Below, in pieces: positions 2,103 through 49,568 of a DNA stretch of 64,000 nucleotides (within the stretch, counting starts at the first letter, position 1; each line of letters opens with the position of its first letter). Made by a program: the position numbers and the translations under genes. The notes below the pieces were generated by a model. The model was not told the DNA's origin, searched no databases, and saw only the letters and a program-made list of their open reading frames with translations. Location: contig NW_020194684.1 in NCBI RefSeq assembly GCF_002865645.1, positions 5,433,952 to 5,497,951 of the forward strand, written 5' to 3'. The stretch comes from Hyaloscypha bicolor E. Lineage: Eukaryota > Ascomycota > Leotiomycetes > Helotiales > Hyaloscyphaceae.

Positions 2103-4269
2103 ATGGATACCGATCCTGGGCCGTTCGAAGAAAGTGACTGCGATTGTAGTGCTGCCAACACGGATTACCGATCCTTCAGCATGGCTGTTGCTTCTGGTAC
2201 ATTAACTACGGGAGATATTATTATTCGTCAACCCCATTCATTTCTTCTCCCGGATCTTACTTTCGTGGCTTCTCAGGTCCAAACACGAATTTCAGCGGAA
2301 GATAGTGGTAAAGATAGCAGTGGACTCGAAATCGAGGGCGGCGGCAGAAATCCCGGGAGGGTGGAAATTGAGGGCGACCATAATGGGGTCAGCGGTTTTG
2401 AGAAGCACAGTGGAGTAGCAAGGATCGCTACGGAAATCTCTACAATGAGAACGGTTACAAACTACACACCTGGTGCAAGAGCCGAGGCCGAGAAGGGAGA
2501 TGAGGGAGAGAGTGAGCTTGAGAATAGGGGTGCAACCGAAATGAGAGTAATGGAAGATACGAAGAGGATTGCAGCCACGTGGAACAAGACACCCACGATA
2601 AGACCAGCAATAACAACGACAATAAAGACTTCGACTGTGAAGCTAAATTACGCAAATCTCTCAACACCAAAATATAGCAATAAGTCCTGGTCTTCAGAGG
2701 ATTCCAACATAGGAGGAGTCATGCTGAACTCGCTAAAGCCCCGTGGTCGCCAAGCGAGCTCGCTTGTCTCCACAGCCCCTATCCGACACGAAATCGTCAC
2801 CGGCTCGGAGTGGAGAGTACTTAGAGACCAGAGCATCTCTCCCACCAACGATGGAGATATGCAAGATTTGCCCAGTGCCACACCTCCTACCAACCATAGA
2901 GTAAAACAAGACTCATCTAATGCAGTCGGTCATACCAATCATCGAGTTATATATTACTCACCCGCTGTCGTCACTCCTAGTAATAGCCGAGCTATACAAG
3001 ACTCACCCGGTGCCGGCACTCCTAGCAATAGCCGAGCTATACAAGACTCACCCGGCGCTGTCTGCCCTTCTAATAGTCGAGTTATACACAACTCACTTAG
3101 TGTAGTTGCTCCTACCAACAATGAAGTTATACAAGACTCACCTGGCTCTGTCTCCCCGGCCCCTTTGCACTTCCACCGCAAGTCCCGCCATGCACAGCAT
3201 GACAATCACCAATCAGTGACTCCTGGACCTTCCACCTGTACCAAGACCCGCAAATACAAGCTCTTGCACACCCCTGATACACCTCTTACACGCCGCCAGA
3301 AAGCAGAGCCCGATATCGAAGCCCTCACCGACAACCTCCAAAACCTGACACTTCGTCGCCCGACCCCTTGGGTCTACTCTCCCGCAGCAGTTCGAAAGGC
3401 ACTCAGCCAATGGAAATACGATGAGCAATGGATGGAGAATGCAGAAAGACTCGAGGCAAAGAATCGATTCCGAGGCATCGACCTGAATTATGGATGGAAC
3501 AGAGCGGCAGCAAATCTTATTAATTCCACGAAAGATGCCGCTTGGGTTGCACCCTACTTTGAGGGGGGACCGGAGATGAGGATGAAGATCACAGAGGCGT
3601 TGAGTAGGTTCAGTTTGTGGTCGCAGCTGGAGCCTATTGAGTGGGATGCGGAGGAGTTGAAGGGGATGTTTGACATGGTTTTTGTTGGGGAGGGATTAGG
3701 TAATTCTGGGTGGGCAAGAAAGCCGGGCAGTTGGTGGGGAACGAGGAAGAAGCTATTTGATGGACATAGGGGCAGAACCTTTCTTGAGGAGCTTGATCTA
3801 TGGGTGAAGGAGATTGAGGATGGGCGGGAGAAGTGGAAGCAAAAGAACAAGGGGAAATTGTTTGCGCTTGGAAGCCTGAAGCGAAAGACGAGCAGTGCAA
3901 AGGCGCAGGTCGATGTTGAGGGTGACGGACGGAGAAAGAGAATCAAGATGCCAAAGACAAAGGCAGAGCAGGTGATGAGCGAAGAGTGGCGTGCAAGGAG
4001 GAGAGTACAGGAGAAGAATGCAGGCAGGTGGACGGATGGGACATTGAGAATGGACCGGATGTGGGCAGCGTTCCATTGTAGGTGTTGGGGGAGAAATCTT
4101 TTCCTATTTGCGACTGTTCCATGAGTTTTTCTTAAGTCAATGTCCTCTCCCGAAACAATCCCAATTGAGCAATTGCTGACTCCCCGGTTACCTAGGGGTG
4201 TTGAATACGGACGATCCGAATCACTACCTTGACCGGCTATGGCCAAAGGAAATTTTTACACGCTCTTAG
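2103..4269 (+). CDS. Unrecognised 682-residue protein with seven 15-residue repeats
   Basis: Two exons: 2103-4077 and 4196-4269. Exon 1 alone stays open to 4124, but the splice gives a better C-terminus (FHWVLNTDDPNHY...) ending at the TAG at 4267-4269. The intron is one of two homologous introner-like copies in the window. Residues 248-352 are seven tandem 15-residue units of the type SNSRAIQDSPGAGTP. The N-terminal half is low complexity and rich in Thr, Ser and charged residues. The C-terminal third (about residue 415 on) is Trp-rich and looks folded, with a basic stretch KRKTSSAK...RRKRIKMPK that could be a nuclear signal. No known family was recognised. Start chosen at the first ATG of the long frame. 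Confidence 0.75.
2844..3158 (+). repeat. Seven tandem 45-bp coding repeats
   Basis: The seven units are in register at 45 bp (15 codons). The two central copies are nearly identical, differing mainly in their last residues. The outer copies are more diverged (TNDGDMQDLPSATPP at the start, TNNEVIQDSPGSVSP at the end). This pattern suggests recent expansion from the centre. Confidence 0.85.
4078..4195 (+). mobile_element. Introner-like intron, copy 1
   Basis: A 118-nt intron with donor GTAGGT and acceptor TTACCTAG. It aligns along its length with the intron at 47870-47993 in an unrelated gene. The last 43 nt match at 36 positions, and the GTRGTGTT..GGGGG start and CTTTTCCT block are also shared. 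Its removal restores a continuous protein (T|GG gives Trp). Confidence 0.7.
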
Positions 4270-5381
4270 TATTAGACTTGGGCGGGCTGGGAAAATGGCG
4301 ATGAGTTCAGCAGATGGAGTGGGCCTGATTTTAGCCTGATCTTAACAAAATATCATTAATCCAAACCACCTTAGTACATTGACAGACTTTGAGCGTACCT
4401 GATTTTGAGGGGCAATGGCCATATTACAGCGACCTTTCTTGATTATCCACTGGATGTCATTGTTCTCGCGATAATTGGAACATTGTGTAATATTTTTGTG
4501 CCCTCAATATGCTTATCTCCGCGGAACATTGAAAAGTTTCATTTATTCAAAAGATTCAAAGGCTCCAGGAACATTGTGGCTTCCTCTCAATCCCAAAGTC
4601 CTACCTTTTAATAACAGTAGGCAATATCAAGTTCAATATACCGAGAATCAAGGTATATCACGGTTACTCTATACCCTCAATGTCCAGTATTTATAGAACA
4701 TTGCGTGACCATATAATCTCGAATGTATTAAAGCTCAAGGAACAATGGATGGCGACATGACTTGGAATGCAGTTACATTTAACATTACGAAGGCGACGGG
4801 CGTTGAAAATCGTCCATTTGCAGACTGCGTGCAAAATTGCCTTGTGCGGAAAGTCGCACTAATCCCCAACGCAACGCAACGCCCAAAATTTTCTATAAGA
4901 GTTTTATATAATAGAAAAATAGTACGTTAATCATTTCCAAGAATTTTATAACGATTAAAGTTTGGGAAAAAATTGCGAGACATTTATAACCGCGTAGCCC
5001 CTAGACTTCCCAAATTCTCGCTTAGCGAGTTAGACGGATTTTAATGCTCACCGCATTCGTAAAGAAGTGAACTGTGCAGCTCGAACGCTCCAAAATCTTA
5101 GGAATACTGAACATTGATATTCCCTGGATATATCAAGATTCCGTCCGGGAATACTTAAATGCTTGTACGAGAACTTTGTATTCTTATATAAGCTTACTGC
5201 AAAATAAAAGTTCTGCCAACTGCCGAGGAAAAGTTAAACATCCGCCAGAGAACTTTGTAAGAGGATTTCAGTATCCCGATGTGTCTTCCTTTCCCAGATC
5301 TCTCAAATACAATGTACCAGCTCCCTCAGCTAAGCCAAGAGTATGAACCATGTGTTCCTCTTGACCTTGAATCCAGGTCCA
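4270..5381. other. AT-rich intergenic stretch, no supported gene
   Basis: Moderately AT-rich, especially 4880-5000. The word GAACATTG recurs near 4477, 4525, 4572, 4696 and 5109, and GAACAATG lies near 4740. A short palindrome CTCGCTTAGCGAG lies near 5018. It may be an eroded repeat element, but no termini or coding remnants could be defined. Confidence 0.4.
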
Positions 5382-6444
5382 TCATGTCAACGCACGTGTA
5401 TCATTATCCTTCATCGTAACTATTTTCCTAATCCCTTCTACGGCTTCAAGGAGACGGATCTGGTTCTTCTCTTCGATAGGCAAGCTAGTATGGAAAAATA
5501 ACTCGAATGACTTCAATCCCCTAATAGCCTTCAGTGCAACGCAGTCTGTGATAACCTTGAGTGCACTCTCGTCGACAGAGACACTCTTTGCTGTGCCCCA
5601 ACCCCAGGAGTTGTAAGGCGGGCCACGATGTATTGTCGAGTGCCAAGGATACAAGCCAAGGTTGAGAGTAAAGTGCTGTAGATTCTTGCAGCTGGCAATC
5701 ATCTCGAATGGTCTTCCACACGCCCGGGGTGATTTGTCATCGAAACACTTCTTGTATATTTGTAGATTCAGATCCAGTTCGATAGTGCGGATTGCGTCCT
5801 TGTGCCGGGGATTAATGACCCACAGATAATTCAGCATCGTCGACGGGCTGGTGAAGGAGAATTTTCGGAACTGGTAGAGCAGACCACTGCCAACAACGTC
5901 TACATAGGCCTGTCGACTTAGGAGATAGAGTGCTTCCGTTTCTTTCGAAGCGTTTCGCCAGTTGCGGTCATAGAATTTACTGCCTTTCTTCCACGGCGTG
6001 ATGGGTGATCCTTTCTCAGGACCGACTGTCCAATCGTCGATCACATGCTCGTAGATTCTGTTGCGACACTCGATGGGTAGTCTGAAGAATCCGGACTTTT
6101 GCGGTGATATAGCCTGAGCCCATGCGAGAGACTGTCATCCAATATTAGCTAGCCGTTTCGAAGTCGATCGAGTGCAGAGTCTTACATGAATTCCGACCTC
6201 TGGCTCTGGAAGCTCTTCGCATTTGACAAATTTTGGTTTCTTCCGGTTATTTCCCCAGCCAGTCACCCGGCTCTTGGTCGGCTTTCGTTTCTTTGGAGGT
6301 GGAGCTTGTGGCTACTTGCAGTCAGCATTATGGAGCTCTCTTTGCTCCGACATGGAAGCCACGTACATTGAAAGCATCGAAACTACCGACTTTCTTCCAA
6401 TGCATTTTGGAGTCCCCTTCGCTTTGCTTTCGTTTGGCTGGCAT
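5382..6444 (-). CDS. 2EXR/F-box-like protein, 317 aa
   Basis: Three exons on the minus strand: 6444-6367, 6311-6186 and 6131-5382. Splices use GTACGT..TAG and GTAAG..CAG, and the total is 318 codons including stop. The N-terminus is basic and Lys/Pro-rich (PKKRKPTK at about 31-38, a plausible nuclear signal). Exon 3 opens with the motif FRLPIECRNRIYEHVI. This is typical of the fungal 2EXR/DUF7730 F-box-like family, and is followed by a beta-rich region including NPRHKDAIRTIELDL. Members are abundant in Pezizomycotina and poorly characterised; some are thought to be ubiquitin-ligase adaptors. Function is inference from the family only. Confidence 0.8.
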
Positions 6445-7194
6445 CTTGATGATCTCCTACTCTGTGATCCTGGTTTTGGGTCTTGTTAGTGGTCTCGACT
6501 TGTTGTGAACCGCAAGAGGTCTGCGAAAGCGACGAGGTCAAATAACTTCAGGTCAATTTTCGAAAATTAAGGCCAAGCCGGAAAATGCCCTCAAAGTGAG
6601 GTTACCTAGGGTGTAGTGCAACTTAGGTCCCGCCGTCAGGCTGAAGCTGGTAGTGAACTACACTTGGTTCTCTGGGACCCGAGCCTTTCAGTGGTTTAGC
6701 GTGGTTCAGCTCAAACGATTGCAATAGATTCAATGTTCAGAAGCTACTGGTAGCACGTAAAATGTGGTCTTGGAGGCCAAGAAGATGATGCGGAATGGAA
6801 AATTCGGATTAGGCTCTGCACGAAGTCACTCACTCGCGTCGGAGTTGCTTCAGCCTTGTGCGCGCAGGCAGCAGCGCCTACAAAAATTAAGACTCACGGG
6901 CTGCTTGCCTCTCCTAACCCGCTCAGAACAGTCTTGATTGGTCTGTTTATTTCCCGATGTAAAGTGGGGAGCCTCAACAGTTGGGACAGGGGCACAAGCA
7001 ATTCATGAACAACTTCAAACGATATGGAGCGTCATTAGCACTGGACGAGCCAGCAGAGTCTTGTATTTAATCGTCTCGTCTAAAACGCCTTTCCTAGGGT
7101 GAACGCCACCAATGCATCCGCGAATGAAATGAAACCGAGTTTCAAAAACCCAGTGACCAGCACGGAATGAAAGCGTTGCAATATGTGGATAACT
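6445..7194. other. Intergenic, nothing recognised
   Basis: This lies between the divergent-side upstream region of the 2EXR-like gene and the 3' end of the NAD kinase gene. Short open frames here lack coding character. No repeat or RNA gene was seen. Confidence 0.5.
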
Positions 7195-9084
7195 CTAACC
7201 CTCGAGCAAGCTCATGGCCGTTCGAGGAGGGCTAGCACTATCGCTGCAATCTTCGCTTGTGCCGTACGCAGAATCGTCAAAATCAATGTCCCACTCATCG
7301 CCTTGCTCTTCGTTCTCTTCCAGACCGTCCCATCCTTTCTGTGCTGCACCTCTGGTGTTCCATTTCAGAGATGTAGACACACTTTCGAACCATTCCGAAC
7401 CAGATTTCATTACGGTAGGGAATGGGTATTGAGACGCAGCGATTGTGATATGATCACCTTGCTTGAGCTCCACGCGATTTTTGCCGTCAAAGGAGCAGTA
7501 GGCTGTGGCACGGGAGTTGCGAGGAATAGAGACTCGAAGCAGAAGACTGTCCGAAAGAACCATAGGTCTGAAGGAAAGGGTGTGTGGGCAAATTGGGGTA
7601 AGAAGAATTGCCGGGATATCAGGGTGGACAAGAGAGCCACCCGCTGACAGAGAGTAGGCTGTCGAACCAGTTGGTGTGGCGAAAATGCAACCGTCGGCCT
7701 GGACTACGGTGAGGAGTTCGTTGTCTCCGTACAACTCAAGGTTTGAGACGTAGGGAGATGGTCCACGGTCAATGACAAGCTCATTGAGAACCTCAAATTG
7801 CTCGGCCTCTTCCATGTCTTGACCGGAGACGCCACCTTTGTAGACAGTGCATGTGAAACGCATACGCATGCTTACTCGCATGCCATCCTCTCCCATCACC
7901 TTGTTCAACTGCTCTTTGAATTTGTCGTATTCAAAGTTGGTCAAGAATCCGAGGCTGCCGAGACTGAATGACAATATTGGGGGAACGATCCCTTGGAAAA
8001 GCCAAGACGTGAAGAGGACAGTGCCATCACCTCCAAGGGTGAGGACCAGGTCAAACTTCTCGGGTTGGTTCCGACACATCTCGGGTCTCCAGTATCGCAA
8101 GAGATGTTGTAAGCGAGGATGCGCCTCCAAAATATCAGCAGCACCAAACCGTTTCGACGTCTTGAGTTTGGCATCAACGTAGACAGTAACACCAAGCTCG
8201 GATCCGTATCTGGGAGTGCTCATAAGCCACATCGCAAGCTCCTTCGTCAAGTTGACCAATTGATTGTCTCTCGCTTTAGTAACGATCATGACATTACGGA
8301 CCGCCCTTTTCATTGGACGACGTTGTAGTTGTTTTGATATTTCTCGGACACCAGTAGCCGTTGCGAGCAGCCGAGAGTGGGAAATCCATTCGTTCCCCTG
8401 GATCTCTTCGAGAACTTTGTCGATGTTGAGGACATCATCAAATCGTTCGTGATAGAAGCAGGGCGATTGTAGGGCAGTGAAACGAGGAGTTGTTGGGGTT
8501 CCGGCCCTGTCCGTGAGGCTTGACAAGGCGGCCGACAGTTTTTGGGAGGAGGCAGTCCCAGGTCGATGCTCCATCTGTTTATGTGCGGCAATCATGCTGG
8601 ACAAGGATAAGTTTTGCGGGTTGTGATTCCTGCCAGCGGATGCCAATGCCTTTATGATTGTTTGCCTGGGTATGGACTCCACGGACAGAGCGTTCTTGCG
8701 GTGCCCGAAGGCAGGCTTAAATGAAGCTGGAAACACGGGTGATGAGGGAAGGGACGCGGAGTCGTTCGGGGAATTCTGTCCTACTGTGGTAGCAGCAGAG
8801 AATGAAGATTCGGAGGGGTCATTGTCGAGGTCGTAGGGGTATCTCTTCGTGTTCAATGCGGTGAGGGGATCCGGGGCGTGTTCACGGTGACGCTGGAGCG
8901 ATTCTCCGTGAGAGCTGCTTTTCAAGTCATTAGGATGTGGTGTTGCAAGAGACTGCGCACCTGCGGACTCGTAAGGTGGAGATGGTGGGGATGCCTCATT
9001 AATGGAGGCCAAGGGAAGAGTGTGAGGATTGGTCAGAGCAGGGTGGTGGATCGAATTGGAAGTGGGAGAGCGAATGTCAGCCAT
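7195..9084 (-). CDS. NAD+ kinase (ATP-NAD kinase), 629 aa
   Basis: Single exon from the ATG at 9084. The first ~220 residues are Ser/Pro-rich and probably disordered. The catalytic domain follows and carries the signature GGDGT (351-355) after FDLVLTL, the NE/D motif VLNELVIDRG (432-441) and the Gly-rich ATPTGSTAYSLSAGG (470-484). It phosphorylates NAD+ to NADP+ and so supplies NADPH. Length and architecture resemble the cytosolic Utr1/Yef1 group rather than mitochondrial Pos5, since no clear presequence is seen. The C-terminus is acidic. Confidence 0.95.
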   Translation of the reverse strand: MADIRSPTSNSIHHPALTNPHTLPLASINEASPPSPPYESAGAQSLATPHPNDLKSSSHGESLQRHREHAPDPLTALNTKRYPYDLDNDPSESSFSAATTVGQNSPNDSASLPSSPVFPASFKPAFGHRKNALSVESIPRQTIIKALASAGRNHNPQNLSLSSMIAAHKQMEHRPGTASSQKLSAALSSLTDRAGTPTTPRFTALQSPCFYHERFDDVLNIDKVLEEIQGNEWISHSRLLATATGVREISKQLQRRPMKRAVRNVMIVTKARDNQLVNLTKELAMWLMSTPRYGSELGVTVYVDAKLKTSKRFGAADILEAHPRLQHLLRYWRPEMCRNQPEKFDLVLTLGGDGTVLFTSWLFQGIVPPILSFSLGSLGFLTNFEYDKFKEQLNKVMGEDGMRVSMRMRFTCTVYKGGVSGQDMEEAEQFEVLNELVIDRGPSPYVSNLELYGDNELLTVVQADGCIFATPTGSTAYSLSAGGSLVHPDIPAILLTPICPHTLSFRPMVLSDSLLLRVSIPRNSRATAYCSFDGKNRVELKQGDHITIAASQYPFPTVMKSGSEWFESVSTSLKWNTRGAAQKGWDGLEENEEQGDEWDIDFDDSAYGTSEDCSDSASPPRTAMSLLEG

Positions 9085-11093
9085 TTCGATTTTCGAGGCC
9101 TACACAAACGGGCCGGTCGGTCGGCAGTCGGGATTTGCCAAAACAGTAAGCGCAGGGGATCGGCGATAAGGTTAAGCTATCCGAGCACGACAGTTACACT
9201 GCGCAATGTCCGTGGGACAGAAAATCTCATGTGACGTGGTGGCTCTGTATCAAAAATGCGAGGCAAGACGAGGCGATGCGAGCGACCGTGAGGTGTGTCC
9301 GAACGGCAACTTGCACTCGTCGCCCGGGTAGAATCTCGTTGTCGAGCTTGGAGTCGATTCGATCCCGCTTTCTCGAGAGCCGAATTAGATTGCGGAGGAT
9401 TTAATACCTGGGGAAGTCGGGTGATGGTGCACTGTTCAACCAAGTCCGAGTCAATGGGCTTTATCCGGCACAATGGGGTGAACTAGAGAAATCATTGGGT
9501 ACGTCAGCTGTGATTCTATGCGGCATTGTGATGAGGGGGGAAGTATTGAGTGAGGTTATGAGAAAGAAGCATCTTGCATCAGATCGGTGATGTGACGTGC
9601 TGTGTGCAAGCCACGAACGAGGTACATGCACTACCCCGCCATCAAATCAACTGCCACATTGACTAACACGGGGCCTCATGTGCAATCGTTCTGGGAAAGA
9701 CATGGGCCAGGACTCCAATAAAATTGTCCGGATGCAGGAGATGAACTCTACTCACTCGACGAAGCGAAGAAGGTTTGATGCAGGATGCCGTGTGTGATGA
9801 TCTTCCTTACTCGTCCACAGAAGTAATCGTGTATGCAGGTGAAAATTTCTGAGATCGGCGCGTGTGCGGTGACGAGTGTGGTGACGAGTGTGGTGACGAG
9901 TGTGGTGATAGTGATAAGCTTTGCAGCCGGGACGAAATGAGGGTCTTGAAATATATAACAAGAACGTAGCAAAAATGTTGGAATTGGATGGCGAAAATGG
10001 TATCTCCAGGTACTGTAAAAAAAGGGATGCTTGGTCTATGGTCTATAAATCGACGCCGGAAAATGCAACAATAAAAGTCTATGTGCGAGAAGTGTGCATG
10101 GCAAAAGCAGAAAGTATAAACAAGGTGCAAGTAGGAACAAAGTGGAAGCACAAGCTACCGGAGCTCTGCTGTGGAAGATGATAGCCGGTGCGATGGGTCT
10201 GGTGAGGAAGTCGGGAGGACAAATTTGGACCCGGACTCGATTTTGTCTTATAGGAGGCGCCAACCTTGGTCTTAGGCCCTTGATCTTCGATTTTTGTAGG
10301 CGAGTTTCGATGTGTCGTCGTCTCAAAGATCACGGGCGTGACAGGCTAGCGTTTTCAGTGAGTGGCTGGCGACAAGTATCAGCCCACCAGGACGAGTGCA
10401 GTGGTGCACAGTGGCGGCATAATGTTTGGAGTCGGGTGGCCAACAAGCGTTGGGTTTATGGGGGACCCCCTTTAGGATAATAGCTCCGGAGCATCAAACG
10501 TAGTTGGAGCTTCGTTATCACTTCCATCTGATAAGACTGAGGCTGGAAAAGCTTCAACGACATGGAGGCGGCAGAAGTCCAGCCTAGATCTCAAAAATAG
10601 GAGGCAGTCACATCCTGAATTTGGCCTTGTGTCAACATTTTCCCGCACATCACAAAGGCGTCGCTAATCCTCGATGTTCATTGGGTTTGAGAGCTGATGA
10701 AACTTCGCCTCAAGTCAGGGGTCCAGGTCTCCAAACAGCCCCACAGCACTGACTACTTGTTACAGCCTAGTCTCCGCGGTCAAGTCCCACGACTTTGCTG
10801 CTCGCGCTATTTTTGTAAACAAATTCGGGGAACAAGGGTCACTCTGTTGGATTCACGGTCCGATCCTTCAGAGGCGGCTATTTAAAAACATTGCCGCCGT
10901 TGAAAGATCGTAAGCTTGGCATCAATGCCATAGCCCCTCATCATCCAGTCCCCCACGACTGCGGTTGCCTCATTGTACCAAACACATCCCGTAGAATGAC
11001 CTTGCCCCTATTGAGGAAGTCGGCCGCTGCCATTGTACCAAAGGATCGTGAAACGTTTGAAAGCTGTGGAGATGATAAGTGTTGCTAAGTCGA
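9085..11093. other. 2-kb intergenic region, no supported gene
   Basis: Contains a short 12-bp tandem repeat (listed separately) and several short open frames on both strands with no recognisable motif. The part next to 9085 is the NAD kinase promoter. No RNA gene was recognised. Confidence 0.5.
9868..9915. repeat. 12-bp tandem repeat, three full units and a partial fourth
   Basis: The unit GGTGACGAGTGT is repeated at 9868, 9880 and 9892. It then decays into GGTGATAGTGAT. It lies in intergenic DNA. Confidence 0.85.
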
Positions 11094-11961: not shown

Positions 11962-12156
11962 GATTGTTAATAGCTTTTGTATCTTTTTAGGAGTTTTGAC
12001 TTGAACCGTGAATCAAACATTGCAAGTTGCTCGCGGAACTTTTTATGGTGATGACGCTAAAAGCGGAACATCCTTGCCCCACGTTGTTTCCCTGTCAGCT
12101 TGAGCAATGAGGCGTCATTCTGCCCACAACCTCGTACCACAACAACAGAATCAATA

Positions 12157-13452
12157 ATGCCATCAAGTACAGACAATACCTTGAAAGAACGACCAGCTGT
12201 CGCTATCTCGGATCTGCGAGACCGGCTGCCAAAGCTGACACCTCGGCGTCGACCACCTCCTGCTGCGAATCCTCTGCCAGTACCCGAGACTCCGAATCTC
12301 CCACCGCCTCCGGAGCTCTCGACATTTAGTTTCAAGAAGCCCACGAGACGTATCCTCTCACCAAAAGACCATGACCTGTTTCTAAGCTCTCCCACATACA
12401 ATCTCCTGCTGGCTTTTGTTTTTGGCCTTACAGAGTCGGTCGTCGACACCCCAGTCTCAGCAGTCAAGGACAGCGATCTCAGCCCCGCAGTCAAAAACAT
12501 TCTTGATATTCTCGACAAAGTTGAAGATGTGGTCAAGAGAAGTCCACCAGAGGAGCAGGGTGATTCCCGCTTTGGCAACAGAGGATTCCGCGACTTCATC
12601 GACCTAGCAGGGAAGGAGCATATAGGGTGGCACGAACAGCTAGGCATCAGACCCAAGGAAGCTATCACCGAGAGCTCAACATACTTCCTCCAATCCTTCG
12701 GCAATCGCACAAGAATAGACTACGGTTCCGGGCATGAGTTAAATTTCATGATATGGTTGTTCTGCCTCTACCAGCTGCGAATAATCACCCCATCCGACTT
12801 TCGCCCCGTCGTTCTTAGGGTCTTCACCCGATACCTCACTCTCATGAGGAAAATCCAATCCACATACTATTTAGAACCAGCAGGCTCACATGGTGTGTGG
12901 GGACTAGATGACTACCAGTTTCTCCCCTTCCTTTTCGGCTCCTCGCAGCTCCTCCATCACCCTTTTATCCGCCCCCTCTCCATACACCAAAGCCTCATAC
13001 TCGAAGAATACGGAAACGATTACTTATATCTGGGCCAAGTCAACTTCGTCAACAGTGTCAAGAACGTTGAAGGCTTAAGATGGCATAGTCCTATGCTAGA
13101 CGACATATCGTCAGCAAAGTCGTGGTCTAAAGTCGAAGCTGGAATGAGACGTATGTTTGTTGCAGAAGTTCTGAAGAAGCTACCAGTTATGCAACACTTT
13201 TTGTTTGGATCTTTGATACCGGCGGTGGATGAGATGAGCAAGGAGGAAGAATTTGGAGTTCCGAGTGAGGAAGAGGATCCTGAGGGAGGAGAAGTGGTAG
13301 TTATGGTTGATGGAATGAAACATGTGCATCAAATGAATAGCTGGGGCGATTGCTGTGGTATCAAAGTGCCCAGTAGTGTTGCAGCTGCTCTGGAAATGAA
13401 AAAAAGAATGGGCGGTGGCGGAGAAGGCCTGAGACGAATACCTTTTGACTAG
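12157..13452 (+). CDS. PP2A activator / peptidyl-prolyl isomerase (PTPA, Rrd family), 431 aa
   Basis: Single exon; I start at the first ATG (12157), because the open frame upstream has only a TTG. After a Pro-rich N-terminus, the all-helical PTPA fold is evident from the blocks YLQ/YFLQSFGNRTRIDYGSGHELNF, RIITPSDFRPVVLRVFTRYL, GSHGVWGLDDYQFLPF and WHSPMLDDISSAKSW. These are the characteristic conserved PTPA signatures. The protein activates the PP2A catalytic subunit and has proline isomerase activity. An acidic loop near the C-terminus (about 380-400) looks like a fungal insertion. Of the two yeast paralogues (Rrd1, Rrd2) I lean to Rrd2 but cannot decide. Confidence 0.93.
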   Translation: MPSSTDNTLKERPAVAISDLRDRLPKLTPRRRPPPAANPLPVPETPNLPPPPELSTFSFKKPTRRILSPKDHDLFLSSPTYNLLLAFVFGLTESVVDTPVSAVKDSDLSPAVKNILDILDKVEDVVKRSPPEEQGDSRFGNRGFRDFIDLAGKEHIGWHEQLGIRPKEAITESSTYFLQSFGNRTRIDYGSGHELNFMIWLFCLYQLRIITPSDFRPVVLRVFTRYLTLMRKIQSTYYLEPAGSHGVWGLDDYQFLPFLFGSSQLLHHPFIRPLSIHQSLILEEYGNDYLYLGQVNFVNSVKNVEGLRWHSPMLDDISSAKSWSKVEAGMRRMFVAEVLKKLPVMQHFLFGSLIPAVDEMSKEEEFGVPSEEEDPEGGEVVVMVDGMKHVHQMNSWGDCCGIKVPSSVAAALEMKKRMGGGGEGLRRIPFD

Positions 13453-13691: not shown

Positions 13692-15423
13692 TTACCAACC
13701 ATCCAAAACTTTCGCCTTAACATACATACCCTTCGCAGGTCTAGCAGTCACACCACCCTTAATCACCACATTTTTCTCATCCAACTCCCTCTCATCATTC
13801 AATGCAAACTCAAACCTGCCAATCCACGCCGCTAATAAACACGCGAACTCCGCCGTTGCAAAACGCTGCCCGATACAACTCCGAGGGCCATGCAAGAAAG
13901 TCAAAAGTGAGTAAGCGCTGTTAGCCCCGCCGTTGGGGTTGTTGAGCCATCGGTCAGGGTTAAATTTTCGGGCATCAGGACCCCAGAGTTCTTCGGATTT
14001 GTTGACGGCCCAAGGGATGAATATGACGCGGGTTCCTTTCGGGATGTTGTGCCCTAGAATCTGGGTGTCCACTCCTGCGTTGCGGAGAGTGAGAGGAACA
14101 GGTGGGTAGTAGCGGAGGACTTCACTGCAGACAGCCTGTAGATATGGCATGTTGTCGATTTGCTGGCTTGTGACGCTCTCGGATTCGTTGAGACTGGGGA
14201 GATTCCCCCGGATTTCCGCACGGAGGCGACTTTGGACGTCTTGGTTGAGGCAGAGCATGTAGACAGCCCATGTCATCGCAGTAGCTGTGGTTTCGTGACC
14301 TGCTGCCAGGAAAGTCATGAGTTGATCGATGAGATTCTCTTCGCTGAAGCCACCACTTTCTAATGCGACGCTCAGAATGTCAACGTCTGTTAGTTCACGC
14401 TTCTCAAGCTTGTCTTTCTTGGCACGGATGAGTTGCCTGCAAGTGGACCTGATGACTGCTGCTGCTGCCTCTATCTCCCCGTTTCTCTTGATGGGCAATC
14501 TGCTCACGAACCACATTGGCAAGAACAGGTTCAGAAGTCCGAGTATCGCAGCTTGACGGGAAGGCTTGAAAACGGTTCGGTAGGTCTTGTTGAGGACCGT
14601 ATTTGGGTCACGAATAGCCCCAAAATCCTGGCCCAAGCCGGCCACACCAATGATATCGAGGGTAGCCCTGCTTGCCCACTCTCCCACTTCCAGGACTGCA
14701 TCATCGTTTTCCACATCCGGACGCTTCTGGAAGTCTGGCAAGTCCTCATTCCGGATGCCACCGTCTTTGACCTGCTCCGTCATCGCCTCTACAGCCTCTC
14801 GAGACTTCTCCCAGAATAGTGGGTATAGATCCTTCACATGTCTGAACGAAAATGCCGGCATTAGATTCTTTCTTTGTGTCTTGTGCTCCTCTCCTTCCGC
14901 TAACAATATGCCAATACCAAGAAGTCTTCCAAGGCCAGATCGAAAATGGTTGGGCTTGATAAAATCGTAATTTCGAGTTACAAGCACCTCACCCAGCGCT
15001 TTAGGAGAGGTGATCATAATGCGCTCTGAATTGAAGAGGGCCTTATACCGGATAATTCCTTCATTTGGGATATTGTTCACCCTGAAACCCAACGTCAGCA
15101 GTGTAGTGGCTTGCGCACTTGCCACCAAGATCTTACCATTCAATCATGGGCGCGCCAGATGGCAGCGCTGATATTTGAGCAAAGTGGCCATTCCACCAAC
15201 TGCCGCCTGTTGGCTCGGGGAGGTATCTCAATGGCGAGAACCACTTTGGGTAGAGAATAATCCTCCAAAAACACCATCCAAGGAAGCTCAAGACCCAAAG
15301 CTGAATGAATGTGCCCAAGTATGACGGCCGTGAAAAGAGTAATCGCCCCGGGAAGTGCCCGACAAGAATGTAGGAAGAAAAAGCAGAGACAGCCGTCACG
15401 GCTTTCAAGGGGAAGCCTGACAT
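13692..15423 (-). CDS. Cytochrome P450 monooxygenase, 558 aa
   Basis: Two exons on the minus strand: 15423-15137 and 15081-13692. The intron has GTAAGA, a CTGAC branch and TTTCAG. Hydrophobic segments in the first ~70 residues suit an ER membrane anchor, followed by a Pro-rich hinge (RYLPEPTGG). The I-helix motif AGHETT is at 356-361, the ExxR motif EVLR at 416-419, and the haem-binding FLHGPRSCIG at 491-500 with Cys498. The segment EGEEHKTQRKNLMPAFSFRHVKDL fits microsomal fungal CYPs. Substrate unknown; no biosynthetic cluster partners are adjacent, so an isolated oxidative role is as likely as secondary metabolism. It is convergent with the PTPA gene. Confidence 0.93.
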
Positions 15424-39302: not shown

Positions 39303-40465
39303 TCACTCATTGTAATGGTACACCTATATCAAATTAGTCAAGGTTTCAGGATGTGGAAAATGGGGGTAAATACCTTGTAATTCGGTAGCCCAAATGAGCT
39401 CCACCCTAGCCTCTTCGCCATCTTCGCAAATCCTTCCGTCTCAATCAAGTTGTAGAAGGGGAAAGGTGGAAACATAGCCCCATCTCGGTGCACCTCTGCC
39501 TTAACCAACAACGCTGTCCCTCCAACACCATCTAGGTCAACCTCCTGCTTCAGGTCCCCATTGTTTTCTGCCATGTATGCCATCAATGTTCGATATGTAG
39601 CCATTTGTGCATACCCTTCCAACAGAATGTCGTCTTTACCCATCCCTTCTGCAAGTTTCTGTGCCGTCTCACTATCTTGCCAACTGTTGAAATCATAAGG
39701 TCGTTCCGCACGTCTCCTCGTCTTGGGATCAGTGAATCGCTGGAAACAGTTTGGAACAATGATCGGTTTGTTGTGTGCTGCAAGATCTTGAATTAAAGTT
39801 GGTGGGGTCTCCACGATATCCGCATCCAGCCACAGAACCCACGAGGTGGAGGGCCCCAGAGTGGTGAACAGAAGGGAATTCCTCGCTCTTGACATGGCAG
39901 CACGTCGCGCCTTCTGGTTCTCCATCTTATGCCGCTCCGTCTCCGTCTGTGAAACCAATGGCGGCTCAAAATCCTGTCTCTCGATGATGATACTTGCAAA
40001 TCGCTTCTTTTCCGGTCCAGACTTCTGCGTCTTGGTGATTTGCTCTTGCAGAGCCGCCGTGGCAGCATTTCCTTCTCGATTCTTCGGTATTATGAACGCA
40101 AGTGTTACGAGTTCATGGGGATATGATAGTCGCAGCAGATTATCCCAATACTCTTGGTAAAATTTGGCGAGTGGTGTCAGGATAAGGACAGTTTCCCGGT
40201 TCCCAACAGGATCACTGGAGCTTGTGAGGTTGTTCATATGGTAATGCACCACCGGAGGAGGAATTCGTTTTCCATTTGCCTGCTCGTTCTGTTTTCGAAA
40301 CGGTGATGTAGGTGGAGATAGAGGATTCGATGCCGCGGCGGCCTTCCTTGCTGGCGGGTCCGAATTCGAGGGCTGGAGTATGAAGATGAAAATCACTATA
40401 CACAACACCACACCCACTATGATTGTGAGCGGGTTGGTGCGTCGCAGTGACCGAACTGGCCCCAT
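39303..40465 (-). CDS. MNN9: Mannan polymerase subunit Mnn9 (GT62), 370 aa
   Basis: Two exons on the minus strand: 40465-39374 and 39323-39303. Exon 2 encodes only VYHYNE plus stop, and this makes the C-terminus LPNYKVYHYNE, matching the Mnn9 ending. The N-terminus is a type II anchor (basic MGPVRSLRRTNP, then a hydrophobic segment about 12-30). The catalytic-type DxD is D214-A-D216 in WVLWLDADIVETPP. In yeast Mnn9 sits in both M-Pol I and II complexes of the cis-Golgi and starts elongation of the alpha-1,6-mannan backbone of N-glycans. It is distinguished from Anp1/Van1 by the ending and by the LRRTNPLTI start. Confidence 0.9.
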
Positions 40466-42818
40466 GCCGTCGTGCGTTGGGTGTCCTCAATCAATGCGAT
40501 TTGGAGGATCTGGAATCGCATGTGTGAAATCGGGAGCCGCATGCAGTGTTAGCGGCTCTTCGCGGTGGGTTTGACGACTTGATCGTCTTCCCGGTGCCGG
40601 GTTCCTGTTGACTGCGCCGTAAGGGAGTGATACTGTTGATGAGTTGCCAAACAATGGGTGTGATGATGTGAAGCTTTTCCGTGATCTTTAGCGGTTTCGA
40701 TGCGCGGGTACTTCCACCAACTCTTCCCGGCTAGCGACCCCTGCGGATACGAATATTACGACTGGTATCCTCACATGAGAACGTATTCTGTGAACAAGGT
40801 TTTTTGCTCAACCATGACAATTAAATTCAGCAGAGAGCGATTCATCTTGCAATTCACCCAGAAGACTTTTTGGTATAAAGTAATGACGTCTCGTTGAGAT
40901 TTCAAGTTTGAACACCCACACCTGGACATTTACAGTTGTTGTCCTTAACCTTCTACCTGGAGCCCGTCAGTCCAGTTAGTGGTTCTCTTGACCACTCAAA
41001 ATGTCTTCAAAGACTTTAAAAGTAAAATGCATCTTGGCATTTGTATGGAAATCGCTTGTATCGTCTGATCTATGAATCTTACCCAATATAATCTTGAGGT
41101 ACACTTCTCAGGTTTGCCCAGTGTTCGGCATTAGGTTGGACCTACCCAACCTACACCCCTTGTAGGTAGGTAACCTAACCTAATTTGAGGGCTGTAGGTA
41201 GGTTAACCTACATACAAATTTTGATAGGCTGAATAGGTTCAACCTATGACCTACACCAAACCTAAACCTAAATAAATCCTTTAGGTAGGTAACCTAGGGT
41301 AGGTTACCTAGGTTGGACCTATGAAACTCAACCTAATGCCGAACACTGGGTTTGCCCCTGGAGCTGACTTCACACCTGAAAGCTGGAATCTTGCAAAGTC
41401 TCATTGTGTGGCCGGCATGCAAGTTCCAAGCTCACCACAAGAAAACTGAATAGATTTCGGACCTTTTCCTTCGGATCTTCACTGCATCATTGTTATCCTC
41501 AAAGGCTGCAGATACATCCCACCATTTGTTCTCCAATCTCAGAAGAAAATTGAGCTCGGATAGGAGCATTTTCTCGTGACCAATTGCTTACACAATCAAT
41601 TGTGTGTCGCTGCTTCCATTCCCCCTTTCATAAGGAGAGGGGAGAGCGTATAATTAGTTAAGTGTTAAGATGTCAATTATGAGGTCCTGCCTGAACACTC
41701 ATGCCATTTCCATCCGCCCTCAAATTTCTTACATCCTCAGCATGAATGAGAGATTATTTGGTCCTGGCAGCTGACGCCCCAGAAACGATTCCAAGCCGTG
41801 AAGAGGCTCACACATATTTCGAGTACGCCTCTTGGGCGACGTTGAATCCGATATGTAGCTCAAGATCTGCTGCAAGCAGCCGCCGCATTGACGGCCTAAT
41901 AATACTCGATCAACGGGTGTCAAACAGCTGCCCCGAAATGTAATGGCCACTCGGCAGTATGAGAATTGAAACATAGCATAAATGATACTTGAGGGATTTC
42001 GAGGACGCATGATATGTTACACCAGTCCAGCCTGCCTCCGGGAGCAGATGAGTGCAAACAAAGGCTTGGACGACGTGCATGAAACGGTTGGACCACGCTG
42101 GAAAAGCAATCAGCCGTGGCGTGCAATGATCACAAACATGCGCAGCACAGCGACTGTTTCGATTCCCAAAGCGCATGCTGCTGCGACGGAAGTGGAAGGC
42201 AGAGGGGAAGGGGGAGGGGAGGGCTGGAGATTCCGTCGTCCGAGGCCACTATTGAGTAATGTGAATGTGCCAGCTGGACTCGGAGGCGTGCAGAGCGCTG
42301 GCTCGCGAAGGCCTTGTCGCTGGCTGCCAAAGCGTTGCGGCCAGGCTAGGCATTATGCGCTTTTAATTGGCTGAAATTGATGTAGCCTGGCCCTGTACCC
42401 CGGAATCACGAAGCGAAGTCCTGGCGGCTGATTCCATCAAGCCCGTTCCTCTGCACTTGGCCAGAACTCCGTCACCCTTCCTCCTTAACATCCTCACATC
42501 GCACCACCTCGCTCTCGACCTCTATGATCCCGGGAACAGATGGCTTCGAGCATCTTCAGCATCCTCTGGCTCTCCTCATAACACGCACCTACAGAATACA
42601 TTCCCCCTTACGTCTTCTTGCATTGGCTGCGCTGAATGCCGAGTCCTACGCGTAGACGCCGGGAAGAACCTGGAATAATTTCGAGGCAGAAGCCGGCGGT
42701 TGCATTGATACTTTGATTTTACGAACGCGGCTGCGGCTGTGGAATCTTCGATTGTTTCTTTCTCCTTCGACAGTTGGATCGAACGCTATTCAAGATAAAG
42801 AGAAGAACTTGTCCGGGC
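40466..42818. other. Long intergenic region containing a hAT-type MITE
   Basis: No coding gene is supported. The MITE at 41119-41348 is the only defined element. The rest is mixed-composition DNA with short unsupported frames, and the 3' end is the promoter of the gene at 42819. Confidence 0.6.
41119..41348. mobile_element. Non-autonomous hAT-type MITE with 8-bp target duplication
   Basis: The left end CAGTGTTCGGCATTAGGTTG and the right end CAACCTAATGCCGAACACTG are perfect 20-bp inverted repeats. The 8-bp target duplication GGTTTGCC is exact at 41111-41118 and 41349-41356. CAGTG termini and an 8-bp duplication are the hallmarks of hAT elements. The interior has no ORF. It is built from many short ACCTA/TAGGT words in both orientations (for example TAGGTAGGTAACCTA), which could be subterminal transposase-binding motifs. 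Confidence 0.93.
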
Positions 42819-43965: not shown

Positions 43966-44631
43966 CTAAGAATAGCTGGCTCAGAAATTCTGGCATCAGC
44001 GCAGCCATGATTTCGATCTCAAGCTCGCCTTGGAGAGCCATGAGCATGTTTCTGCGCGCGATGCCGACCAGTGCCGGCACGCTCTACATTCGCAGCGCGA
44101 ACTGCGGGCAGAAAACTTTATTTTTGGGCAAGGTGTATTACCGGTTGCTGTATTCCCTTGCTCTCGATATCGAGTACGATACCCAACTGCATTTTTCAAT
44201 CGTCAGACATTGGCATTCTGGTCGGAGTACGGAGGGTAAACTGCGTGCTGAGGGTTATTGAAATCCCGTTGTAGATAAGGAGCAAGGGTCTCCCAATAAA
44301 TCAATACATGACGAATGGAATTATAGAAATTCTTGGTGACGTCTGTCAACTAGCCATACCTTGCTTCATTTGGGTGCTTCACTCCCTTTCCAATGCTTCC
44401 CCTCGTTTGCGAACCTCGCCCAGAATGAACCCCCTGAGACCAAGATTGACAGGTTGTATAAAACGGGGAGAGAGTACTACCAATACTTGATACCTCGCAC
44501 ATCCATCACTCTCATTTAAACATCTCTCGAGCTTTTTAAGCACATTTGCAGTTGCAATTCATATCTTTGCTCAGCCCCATCTTTTTCATCCAGTTCAGCG
44601 ACCACTTCAGCATCTGAGCTCAACCTTCGAT
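43966..44631. other. Intergenic, nothing recognised
   Basis: 3' flank of the preceding gene and promoter of the secreted-protein gene. A TATAAAAC motif at 44457 and a CT-rich stretch close to 44632 are compatible with a fungal promoter and leader. Confidence 0.45.
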
Positions 44632-46342
44632 ATGCAGCTCGTTACTATGATTGGCGCAGTTGCGCTGTTGTCGACTTCAGCAATGGCTGTTCCGGGAAAA
44701 ATGGAGAAGAGTCCGGTCAGTGCCTCCCACTCTCGTGGCCGATCAAGCTAACATTTCCTAGCAGGACCACTGGTGGAAGTAAGTTTAACTTTCAACTTCT
44801 CAAGTTATTCATTTGGAACGTTCTAATGCAGGAATAGTTTAAGAGACTCGCAGCAGGGCAGACATCATCATAGACAAGCGCAAAGAGATAGCAGCCCAAG
44901 TTCCACCGAGGCTGCAGCCTCTTCCTTGACCGCAGTCGACAGCGCAGTGATAACCGACGGCGTAGTCACGACTGAAAATGGAGCAGCGTACACCACCGAA
45001 TATATCACGCTGCAGAGTGGTGATACGTCTGATTTTGGATCCGCCTACACGACGATATACTTTGATCTAACAGCTTCTGATTCAGCAGAGTCCCGTTCTC
45101 ATCACAGTCGCCACCAGTAAGTCGACCTGAGGAATTAACTCATATCTTGTACCTTTCTGAATCGTGTCTTCGGATGATTTTACTTGAGTCTTTTCACGAC
45201 CAGGGCAGTGCTAATTTGCTATGCAGTACCCATACTCGCAAACAGCACATTTCTCTTACTTCTTCTATAGTCTGCTCAGCAACAACTAGTACTGTCACAG
45301 TAACGACCTCCGTGACTGTCTCGACATATGCTTCTTCGATCCAGTCGTATAATTCAACTCCAATGGGATATAATTCGTCTATCACCACACAAACGTCAAG
45401 CCAAGGATTTCCATCTTCCACCGCAAACATTACTTCAGCAGCAACCACTTCCGATTCGGCATCTTCCGCCCTATCCGCATCCTCATTGGTTTCTTCTGGA
45501 TTGGCATCTTCAGCAGCAGCTTCCTTCACATCCTCTTCCTCTCCGCCGCCATCTTCTGAAGCAGCGAACTCTGGAGCACTCGCTTCTGGAACAACAAGAT
45601 CTTCTGAACTTGCAGGCACTTCTACGAGTACTCCAAGGTGATTGCCCTGCCACGCATATCACACTCATATTTTACGGCTGCTGACACGGGAAAAGTGCTG
45701 AACATCACACCAGACACCGCACAACCGTAACTAGACATCGCCACCGCACCCAGTCTCCCTCATCGTCTATAACGACAAGCGTCTGGGTTTCCGCATCTCC
45801 GGTTTCAGTTGCGAGCGGAACATCAGACTTACACCCATCTGCGACCATCACACCAAGTAAGTCGATTTAAACTTCGCATGAGGGTGTGTAGAGACAGCGA
45901 TGATACTGATTCTCCAACTTTAGCGACGACAGTAACAGGGGGCAGCATCATACCAACTGGAACCCCGAATGTGAATGCTAGACATTGCGGCGTTCACGGT
46001 CTGCCTAATGGCGATTACTTCATCGCGGAGTACATTGATAATAGCAACGACGTACATGTCACTCTCCTGGGCTGCTACGAGTTCTGCTTGGTGCGTTCCA
46101 TGCCATTTTAACCCATCTGCCCTGGGAGGATACTAATGATGTTGTTTTTGCAGGGCTCAAATGCTGCCACAGGTGGCTGCATGGCCTACCAATTCTACCC
46201 TGATCTAGACCTAGATATGGAAGGAACGGAAACACGCTGCAAGCTCTATGGCGCCAGTGTAGCAGACAGTTTGATGGAATTCAGCTATGTGCCAAATGTG
46301 TGGTACGATCTGGGCTGCGGAAACCCTATGGTCTCGCACTAG
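44632..46342 (+). CDS. Secreted Ser/Thr-rich protein with Cys-containing C-terminal domain, 431 aa
   Basis: Seven exons: 44632-44715, 44762-44778, 44832-45116, 45227-45637, 45714-45856, 45924-46090 and 46154-46342 (432 codons with stop). The first exon is a signal peptide (MQLVTMIGAVALLSTSAMA). Exon 2 is a microexon of 17 nt. The middle is a Ser/Thr/Ala-rich stalk containing ATTSTVTVTTSVTVS, typical of fungal cell-surface stalks. The C-terminal ~100 residues form a compact Cys-containing domain (RHCGVHGLPNGDYFIAEY, GCYEFC, GGCMAYQFYPD, YDLGCGNP), reminiscent of extracellular PAN/apple-like domains. No GPI tail. Likely secreted or wall-associated; partner unknown. Confidence 0.8.
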
Positions 46343-47025
46343 GGATCAGTTCTCAAGAAGAGGCTTTCGAAGGGCGATTTAGATGTTTGGCGGTGGCGCG
46401 CGCAACTATGTTGATAGAATTAATGGTAGTCAGGGCTTCCTTTTTATTTTGCATCTGGTTTTGAAAGGGGAAGAAGGAACGTTTGCGTTGCATCTAGATT
46501 TGGAGAGGAGATGGAAATACACAAGCCACGAGTCTTATACATCAATCGTTTTACTCCTAACCAAAATTCTCGTCTTATACATATGGCGTCAATGCAAGTA
46601 AGAAGACTTACTAAGGCCCTTCACCCCTCGACCCACTTTTCTCCTCGGTTTTCTGAAGATTTACACACTATGTTAGACATACTAGACTGCTCCATTCCTC
46701 CACAAGTGAGTTGACATATGACTACGATTTTTAGGCCCTGCGAAAATAACTCTTTTTCGATTTCCACGCATTATCGGGAGGGTCTGCCCTTGGTCGCACC
46801 AGCCCCACACTAAGTAAACAGACCCCTTTTCCTTCCAAGTTCGTTAAGCGAGGACCGACACGATCTCGACCACTAGACTTCTTCCACATTTGTGAATCAA
46901 TCGTACCCCACCTCTCTCTCGAATCTTCCTTACATCCAGCCGTCCGCGAACCTAGTTCTCGCCTCATCTCCCACGAATAGTCTTCGCCATTCCCGTGGTG
47001 GGTGTATCTAACCCCCTCTGTCAAA
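46343..47025. other. Intergenic, nothing recognised
   Basis: 3' flank of the secreted-protein gene and promoter of the membrane-protein gene. No RNA gene or repeat was seen. Confidence 0.5.
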
Positions 47026-49568
47026 ATGAGGGACCACTCTCGCACACGGCTGTATCAACTTCTGCTATTCACTAGCGTGTTTTCAATACTGGCATCTTCC
47101 ACGGTTTGGAAAGGGCAGGGAAATTACACTTCTCTTTCAGACGCCTTCGTTCAACTCGCGAACCTCACGCTTCTGCCGGCTTCGAATCGAGAACCTTCTG
47201 GAGGGGGACAAAACTTCACACATTGTTGCCTACTAGCTGTCAACGCCTCTCTCGAAGTGCTCAACGGATCTGTTGTTGAGAAGGTACCTTACTATCTCAA
47301 CGCGTCGGTTGATGACTTACTTGCTGCTACCAAAGCAGGTCAGTTTCCTTGTGGTGCTGTATGGGATGGCAATTCCGTCGGTGCGCCTATCGTGGAGGTG
47401 CCATACGCCTGGGTAGAGGAGACATGCCCTGGCTGGCAACTTTCCACCTCCGGCATCGAGAGCCAGTGGTTATCTCCATTCGTTGGGTTTCTTCTTCCTG
47501 CAGTTATCTTTTGTATGTCTAAATCCTAGTTTCCCAGCAAAATCTGACTAACTTCACAGGCTTGACAATACCGAGACGTAGAAAGCTTACGGTGTGGCAC
47601 CAGTTGTTTGTACCAGACTTGTCTCGTGCAATCTCATGGCTCCTGGCTCCCTTGGCTATGGTCCTCGCCGGCATGTGTGCCATTTGCGACACCATCAGTT
47701 GGCTTGCGATGTGTTTTGCGTTCGCGAGTCCTATGCTTTTGAGTGGATTCTACGAGGCTTATCTGGACTACATTATCATAAATTTTCTCCAGGAGAAGAC
47801 GGAAAACTTTCGACTGACATTAGATATGAGGGCCCGACTTCTTTTCGTGGTACTATGTGGCAACCTCGAGTAAGTGTTATGGGGGAACTCCTTTTCCTGA
47901 TTCGGACCGTCTCGTGATATTCTCATGAGACATTGTCCCAGTACTTCCAAAAACAATCTCCATCGAGGAATTGCTAACTCCTCAGTTACCTAGCTTGGAA
48001 GTGAAAATTAGAGAGAGCGACAGACAATTCATGGAATGGAATACATTGCACCAGAACGGCAATGAACATTGGCCCAACTTTACAACCACGACAGAGCAAA
48101 ACCCTAGCTCGCCATGGACGCATGTGCAAACTCTACTCTATCCAATCCGAACATATCGAGATTCTGACATCTTTACTCCTCGGCAATGGCCGCTTCATGA
48201 CGAGGAGTGTCTAGTTCCAAACTGTACAGACTTGAAGTGCAAAGAAACTCCTATCCCTCGGAGCCCACGATTTCTAAGAGATATTGGCCGCACGAAGACC
48301 AGAGTAAGCGCCCATTTCAAATCAATGCACCAAGCTTCGAATGCCAAATACCAGCACTGACATAATAACAGCTGAGAACCATGCTAGCATGCCAATATTC
48401 ATTTGGAGCAACTATTGGCTGTCCGATAGTTTTTTTCCTGGGAGCCTTCGTCTTCGCTATTGTCACCATACTTTCTAACCTTGGGGATAACGACACGAGC
48501 TTGGCTCTGGCCTTTGGGATGTGGTATATGATAATTCCTCACCTGTCCATAGTTTCTGGTCTTCTTTTGGCGGGCAACAATCCCAATACGTTCGAAGGAG
48601 TGGTTGCCCACGAGTTTGGCGATACGGAAGACCATCAAGCTTTAGAAGAGAAACACTTTGGGACGAGGCTCTTCGAGCTGGCTTATAATAGCCGCTACAA
48701 GCCGGCCTGGTTGTGGCTACGAGGTCGAAGCAAACGAGACTGGGTGGAAAAGGTTTGGAAGACCTACAAACTTCGGCCACCGGCAGGACAGAAAGGGGAG
48801 TTTGTACTTGATGAAGACATGGATGCTCTTCGTAGGTTTACTACGCTTTCCATAATGGGCTGGGCCGTGGTGATCAGCCTGACTCTTCTCTTAATGGGCG
48901 TTCCATTTGTGCTTGCATTTCTCACCGGATTTTACACGCCCCAAGTCGGATTGTCTTGCAGGAGCTTGACTTTCACGGTCTACGCCATCTCACAAATATC
49001 TCAAATCGTTCTCTGGATGTGGGCATTTGCAGGACCTCCACAACAGGGAAAGCTTCTATCATTCCTTCGAAAGGGAGGGGTGCTTGATCGAAATGGATTC
49101 TTCACGCCAACCGATACCAGAACACTCTGGTCAAGAGAAACATATTTCTCCCTCAAATCAGTTTGGGCAATCTTATGGTACGGTTTGGCGAGTACATTGG
49201 GCATTGGAGGTGTATTCACGTCTATTGGAGGGACGATGATGCAATTGATAGGTGTCTATCGGAGTGGCAAATGCCTCATAAACGCCGAGTGGTGGACGAA
49301 ACCAAATGGAGGAGTTGGGGTGATCATTTCTTCGAACTATGCCCTGGAGATTGAAGATGCCAAAAAGCACTGGGCGAGTTGTGGTATCACAGCAACCATG
49401 TTCTTAGGTGTTGTGGCCTTCTGTGGGTGGTGGTATCAAAGAAGAGTGAGAGATCTCTTCAGGGAGCTTGTGAATGATCTCGGCAACCCAAGAACCGATA
49501 GAGAGGATGTAAAGGCGACAGTGGCAATGCCTAATGGCAGAAAGGAGAGTGCTTCAGTCTCGTCATGA
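47026..49568 (+). CDS. Multi-pass membrane protein with N-terminal signal peptide, 767 aa
   Basis: Four exons: 47026-47512, 47560-47869, 47994-48303 and 48372-49568 (768 codons). I start at the ATG at 47026. A signal peptide (YQLLLFTSVFSILASS) is followed by an extracellular domain with paired Cys and several N-glycosylation sites (NYT, NLT, NFT, NAS). The rest has about eight or nine hydrophobic segments with long cytosolic loops (for example HQNGNEHWPNF, KRDWVEKVWKTYKLRPP). This layout is common among uncharacterised Pezizomycotina membrane proteins. No transporter or channel signature was recognised. Intron 2 (47870-47993) is an introner-like copy homologous to the intron at 4078. Confidence 0.82.
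47870..47993 (+). mobile_element. Introner-like intron, copy 2
   Basis: A 124-nt intron with donor GTAAGT and acceptor TTACCTAG. It is homologous to the intron at 4078-4195 in an unrelated gene. It contains a hairpin at 47904-47938: GGAC and GTCTCGTGA pair with TCATGAGAC and GTCC. Earlier AGs at 47949-47950 and in CTCAG are skipped, because using them introduces stops; only TACCTAG restores the frame. Confidence 0.7.

Follow-up and report, generated by a model that had tools for sequence, protein, structure and literature searches.

Introduction

The origin of new spliceosomal introns is an old open question. Introner-like elements of Dothideomycetes were reportedly described by Torriani in 2011 and van der Burgt in 2012, and the DNA-transposon introners of algae are said to go back to Huff in 2016. 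The Dothideomycete elements are treated in PMC4457414, and PMC8469720 credits van der Burgt et al. with their preference for insertion at AG/GY. In the sections available, PMC9860276 presents ascomycete introners as outliers in a DNA-transposon account, the families having neither terminal inverted repeats (TIRs) nor target-site duplications, and an RNA-linked route is argued for other fungal introners in the corresponding sections of PMC8469720, PMC12403724 and PMC9860276. Here we analyse 64,000 nucleotides (nt) of the Helotiales fungus Hyaloscypha bicolor E (contig NW_020194684.1 of assembly GCF_002865645.1, forward strand), called the window throughout. Two introns of the window, w1 and w2, are almost certainly copies of one introner-like element, to judge by their alignment and by the family of similar introns that we found in the genome.

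Results

Two introns of the window are alike from donor to acceptor

The original prediction had proposed w1 and w2 (Table 1) as candidate introner-like elements that align from donor to acceptor. The alignment proved strong, with 70% identity over 124 columns (blastn E ~2e-12) and a global score of 48, compared with a mean of -9.5 and a maximum of 11 when the sequences were shuffled 5000 times with their splice ends left in place. The claimed agreement at 36 of the final 43 nt was recovered exactly on recounting. As had also been predicted, removal of each intron restored the frame of its host (..WAAFH[W]VLNTDD.. in gene 1, ..CGNL[D]LEVK.. in gene 2), and retention of w1 or w2 put stop codons into the frame of both hosts. 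The two host proteins gave no blastp match to each other at E≤1 and the 1-kb flanks of the two introns gave no blastn match at E≤0.01; the hosts are therefore not paralogues, and the prediction was right to call them unrelated.

A family of introns dispersed through the genome

The further copies sought genome-wide by the original prediction proved to be many. The genome searched was the window's own assembly (82.04 Mb, 76 contigs). With w1 as query, 40 of 65 candidates were scored as matches, the majority of them spanning positions 1 to 118 at 82-94% identity (self excepted), and w2 gave three matches, itself included. Three family patterns, one each for the 3' end, the middle and the 5' end, matched 62, 46 and 41 times, respectively, versus zero for each reversed-pattern control, and a short 5' pattern gave 54 versus 7 in its control. 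Merging all searches yielded 92 match clusters, 85 of which were examined, the other seven being weak 5'-end matches of about the control number. A profile made from 37 copies returned 91 rows which, minus eight reverse-strand self-matches, gave 83 distinct copies in the assembly, 82 of them at E<1e-3; three of the 85 examined clusters gave no profile match. Sixty-four copies were complete with exact GT..AG ends and had lengths of 100-125 nt, mostly 117-118. Among the 85 of 92 clusters examined, none proved to be a longer element sharing the ends of the family.

Nearest-neighbour identity among 69 copies had a maximum of 98.3% and a median of 90.6%. The nearest family copy was 94% identical for w1 and 74% for w2, which is an old, diverged member. 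A single flank-to-flank DNA match was found among 67 hosts, and hence the copies sit in unrelated genes. That w1 and w2 are look-alike ordinary introns, or share an ancestral position in paralogous hosts, has a negligible chance of being right and is already refuted for the family overall, given the alignment score far beyond the shuffles, the pattern matches against empty controls and the lone flank match. In its favour is one host pair (L002 at 511-628 and L025; L numbers denote copies and their loci) that may be related and has a position in common. The sites of L002:511-628 and L025:1501-1617 are seemingly identical (Q-L-W-M|W-V-L and Q-L-W-L|W-V-L, the bar marking the intron), and the L002 element is 90.7% like the L025 copy, yet 98.3% like a copy elsewhere. 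Either parallel insertion or an old duplication would give this arrangement.

Some copies are decayed, the 5' splice site or 5' end being lost in L021:1498-1615, L061 and L109. Same-strand pairs of members lie about 0.3-1 kb apart, each pair apparently within one gene (L002:511-628/1501-1622, L009:740-845/1501-1618 and L008:1143-1242/1501-1617); the L008 pair consists of one recent and one old copy.

Most copies lie in the sense orientation, with exact removal supported in five hosts

When coding potential was scored across as many as 60 codons on each side (difference >5), 43 of 62 copies were in sense orientation, 6 in antisense and 13 undecided, and random points of the window gave 0.317 versus 0.303 by the same score. 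The first orientation test had given 42 sense-open and 18 antisense-open copies of 65. When read by eye, L003 and several other exceptions were accounted for by neighbouring introns or sense motifs. We take L099 and L100, two of the six antisense-scored copies, to have sense protein motifs. No clearly intergenic copy was recognised among the copies scored, nine or so of which were undecided. Once the copy was removed, the frame was open for 30 codons or more to either side in 49 of 67 cases. Upstream of position 1618 in L003, whose host encodes a fungal transcription-factor-like protein, the introner lies a few bases past the acceptor of an ordinary-looking intron, leaving a tiny exon.

Alignments with homologues support exact removal at the protein level in five hosts: gene 2, L092, L089, L005 and L032. 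GNLDL at the gene 2 junction was identical in all 14 aligned homologues (14 aligned of 120 listed), and the junction residue was kept without a gap in homologues of L092 (viperin-like) and L089 (GH1). The junction W of L005 was present in 58 of 59 aligned homologues (59 of 120 listed). The junction Q of L032 was found in 6 of 54 (P0122-P0126 and P0129; 54 of 120 listed), which are its closest full-length homologues, the rest having mostly K or E. The junction W of L008 aligned with Y in a first alignment and is uninformative, and the match from a structure search with L014 fell short of the junction.

Relatives with and apparently without the insertion

The comparison with relatives proposed in the original prediction was informative at two other copies, L005 and L032, through protein records. 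Protein neighbours place the fungus in Helotiales and not in Dothideomycetes; among them are a Stipitochalara longipes protein for L005 (90%) and, for L032, one of S. longipes (77%) and another of Hyaloscypha variabilis (76%). Record P0266 aligns with 81% of the L005 protein at 98% identity, ends at the junction and then has 15 further residues, 10 of which equal the intron read-through (0 of 20000 shuffles were equally good). Record P0121 aligns with the L032 protein at 94% identity (88% coverage), and its N-terminal start, MPSPKTINRVIADSP, agrees at 14 of 15 residues with a translation of the 3' portion of the introner itself. Both records thus hold translated introner, and therefore the L005 and L032 insertions are present in close relatives. 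P0242 (91%, L005) and P0122 (80%, L032) are continuous across the insertion site. If metagenome protein records of this kind are called without splicing, as is probable, the intron is absent from the P0242 and P0122 genes. Two insertions common to relatives at 94-98% and seemingly absent at 91% and 80% fit recent gain. P0266 and P0121 are public metagenome protein records, and they hold introner sequence because their gene calls ran into the intron or emerged from it.

Exon bases at the junctions follow the element subfamily

No target-site duplication was found at any tested offset or length in 64 copies. In these copies the exon base before the intron (-1) was T in.58, C in.30, G in.09 and A in.03, and that after it (+1) was G in.42, A in.28, C in.20 and T in.09. 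The junction T|GG occurred at 19 of the 64 versus 1.35 expected from coding sequence (p 5e-17), and CC|A at 6 versus 1.3 expected (p 0.002). The control set comprised 34 introns chosen by a rough rule, one of them counted twice and one a distant family member; in it G was the commonest base before the donor (11) and T|GG had a count of zero.

The +1 exon base goes with the element subfamily, as does the -1 base, though with less clarity. In a nearest-neighbour test the +1 base tracked element relatedness (z 5.5, p 0.00025), -1 was unassociated (z 0.6, p 0.29), and +4 and +8 were weakly positive (z 3.1 and 2.9). A cluster test by mutual information at four cut-offs gave z 7.6, 6.3, 6.7 and 3.2 for +1; z 2.7, 3.2, 4.9 and 1.6 for -1; and z 1.8, 2.0, 3.7 and 2.4 for +4, which was less associated. 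The tree has T|G around L004 and L086, C|A around L032 and L105, and mostly pyrimidine|pyrimidine around L007.

Such bases could accompany an intron that is copied, as DNA or unspliced RNA, with one or two bases of its donor exon into breaks or stalled forks by homology matching of 1-3 nt. The +1 base, and in clusters also the -1 base, is indeed held in common by members of a subfamily, pairs at least 90% identical share +1 in 43% of cases versus 28% of other pairs, and the matching base is already there in the intron-less homologues tested (the W of L005 and the Q of L032). However, -1 was unassociated in the nearest-neighbour test, matches beyond one base are barely enriched, and such copying alone leaves the sense-only pattern and the reading-frame bias unexplained. 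We consider this explanation improbable.

Phase could be called for 53 of 62 copies, and was 1 in 27, 0 in 15 and 2 in 11. Ten of 14 T|GG copies and eight of nine C|A copies were in phase 1, the remaining 30 copies being spread 13, 9 and 8 over phases 0, 1 and 2. Against a coding background of about 0.28 for either motif the phase 1 excess had p 0.0009 (T|GG) and p 0.0003 (C|A), for a bias noticed post hoc, after inspection of the data. One tentative explanation is a subfamily-specific target code, in which a single exon base on each side would be read or brought along and insertion would be visible to the frame. If that were true, the mobile unit would be more than a bare excised intron and would retain a trace of the exon it came from, a mode of intron gain that to our knowledge is found in no described introner.

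Two simpler accounts of the junction bases were rejected. T|GG (19) and CC|A (6) are not one double-stranded site in two orientations; they are separate by subfamily, and the expected partner C|AG was absent (0 of 11 C|A sites), an absence that may in part reflect selection of sites without a tandem AG acceptor. Nor were T and GG retained as bases left by the element, given the W of L005 in nearly all its homologues and the Q of L032 in its closest intron-less ones. At less conserved sites the element may overwrite target bases.

Splice signals and inverted ends

The last profile position was reached by 80 of the 83 copies, and all 80 ended in AG; 66 of the 80 had CTGAC or CTAAC 16 nt before the end. 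Copies reaching profile position 1 started with GTAGGT, GTAAGT, GTACGT, GTAGGC, GTGGGT or GTATGT. When the first and last 16 nt of the consensus were set in register, 14 of 16 positions paired as RNA (shuffle p 0.003) and 12 of 16 by Watson-Crick pairs only (shuffle p 0.0008). A terminal stem was part of the predicted minimum free energy structure in 51 of 64 copies versus 6 of the 34 control introns, most of these being shorter. The pairing test fits an RNA stem and a DNA inverted repeat alike and does not favour RNA. Fold z-scores of five copies ranged from -0.78 to -4.49.

The strong hairpin that the original prediction had singled out is real in w2 (Table 1). Across 37 copies only 72.9% of its pair cells are paired, so the hairpin is confined to some members, and its covariation is weak, with one pair changed on both sides. 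The near-terminal inverted repeat is the more widespread structural feature.

Inverted ends are what one would expect of a non-autonomous DNA transposon resembling a miniature inverted-repeat transposable element, with TIRs that coincide with the splice sites and a transposase that leaves no duplication. The Watson-Crick pairing, the profile's matches to the opposite strand of several family copies and the biased target bases all agree with this, and in the sections of PMC9860276 available DNA-type introners prevail outside ascomycetes. Standing in its way are the absence of target-site duplications in 64 copies, the 43:6 sense bias with no clearly intergenic copy recognised, though intergenic copies should persist, and the split of T|GG and CC|A by subfamily with C|AG at 0 of 11 sites. 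We therefore regard a transposon of this kind as rather unlikely.

Features of the window

The features of the two introns and their hosts are collected in Table 1. The frame of host gene 1 had no Pfam match, and gene 2 has a protein neighbour in Phialocephala subalpina (66%; Helotiales). Rfam and tRNA scans of the 64-kb window gave no match. Open frames of the window at 7195-9099, 12061-13452, 13692-15143, 39338-40486 and 57194-58438 match the NAD kinase, PTPA, cytochrome P450, Anp1 and dihydrouridine synthase families, respectively.

Table 1. Positions in the window of the two introner copies, their internal features and the adjoining exons
Feature	Position	Strand	Remarks
w1 (L004), introner copy	4078..4195	+	118 nt, GTAGGT..ACCTAG, phase 1, junction T|GG
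w1 near-terminal inverted repeat, 5' arm	4079..4093	+	element positions 2-16
w1 branch-point-like CTGAC	4176..4180	+	A 16 nt before intron end; the family's commonest motif and spacing
w1 near-terminal inverted repeat, 3' arm	4180..4194	+	element positions 103-117
Host gene 1, open frame before w1	1986..4077	+	counted stop to stop, start putative
Host gene 1, last exon	4196..4269	+	in frame solely once w1 is removed
w2 (L001), introner copy	47870..47993	+	124 nt, GTAAGT..ACCTAG, phase 2, junction A|CT
w2 internal hairpin	47904..47938	+	about -17.4 kcal/mol; not kept in every copy
w2 branch-point-like CTAAC	47974..47978	+	read from sequence
Host gene 2 (membrane protein), exon before w2	47560..47869	+	
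Host gene 2, exon after w2	47994..48303	+	

Discussion

The mobile unit of this family would be a complete spliceosomal intron of about 118 nt, with GT..AG ends and a CTRAC branch site, that has multiplied in a Helotiales fungus by entering coding exons of unrelated genes and is probably spliced out of its hosts with the protein unchanged. The excised intron RNA, perhaps preserved by the near-terminal stem, may then be inserted into, or copied into, the transcribed coding strand. We favour this RNA-linked, transcription-associated route because placement is sense-only, the intron ends are exact and duplications are absent. We rank it first only weakly and give it about an even chance; introner identity and RNA-linked copying, taken as one statement, seem to us somewhat probable.

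Several observations weigh against RNA-linked copying. The terminal stem showed no covariation or compensatory changes across copies, so the stem is inherited and its maintenance putative, and the shuffle test of the ends leans, if at all, towards Watson-Crick pairs (p 0.0008, versus p 0.003 for RNA pairs). The junction preference differs from the AG|G of spliceosomal exons. Since no exon base travels with excised intron RNA, lineage-specific +1 and -1 bases are unexpected from it; they count against the bare excised intron and favour copying in which a donor exon base is matched or taken along. Selection against antisense exon insertions may account for part of the sense-only pattern, although intergenic copies would survive such selection.

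The T|GG excess, the subfamily-linked exon bases and the phase 1 bias of T|GG and C|A copies are new and unexplained. A non-exhaustive search of the open-access literature, with the species tables of PMC9860276 outside its scope, gave for introners in Leotiomycetes a single paper, on the Cladosporium and Dothistroma genomes, and for Helotiales genera no use of the term among the papers listed; ours may thus be the first introner report for Leotiomycetes. The family offers copies of recent origin and subfamilies that can be read; its ends are inverted but lack duplications, and its exon bases follow the element phylogeny. Reverse splicing, DNA transposition and homology-guided copying thereby become distinguishable by means of a few related strains.

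Comparison with known introners

By the features tested, which are those of sequence, the family is a fungal introner-like element. It resembles the Dothideomycete elements, as described in the sections of PMC8469720 available, in that many similar copies of a canonical intron lie in unrelated genes, inserted seamlessly into exons without target-site duplication, decaying with age and having predicted structure or inverted repeats. It differs in belonging to another fungal class, in preferring T|GG or C|A by subfamily instead of the AG/GY reported in those sections, and in a frame bias tied to the junction type. The AG/GY preference is a species trait rather than a defining feature.

With the sister stwintrons and cropped sister introns of Hypoxylaceae and Xylariaceae, as given in the available sections of PMC8469720 and PMC12403724, our family shares near-terminal inverted repeats that join the terminal Gs, seamless insertion without duplication and occurrence on the coding strand only. 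Unlike stwintrons, the present copies are single introns, none of which opens with a donor split in the manner of a [D1,2] stwintron, where an internal intron interrupts it after the first base, and they have both an exon-base and a phase bias, neither of which is reported for the stwintron families in those sections. The DNA-transposon introners of algae and other protists, in the sections of PMC9860276 available, are likewise dispersed introns with inverted ends, but our family has no target-site duplication and no splice site derived from one. Set against the statement in the same sections that ascomycete families lack both TIRs and duplications, the present family has inverted ends without duplications, as the stwintron families do.

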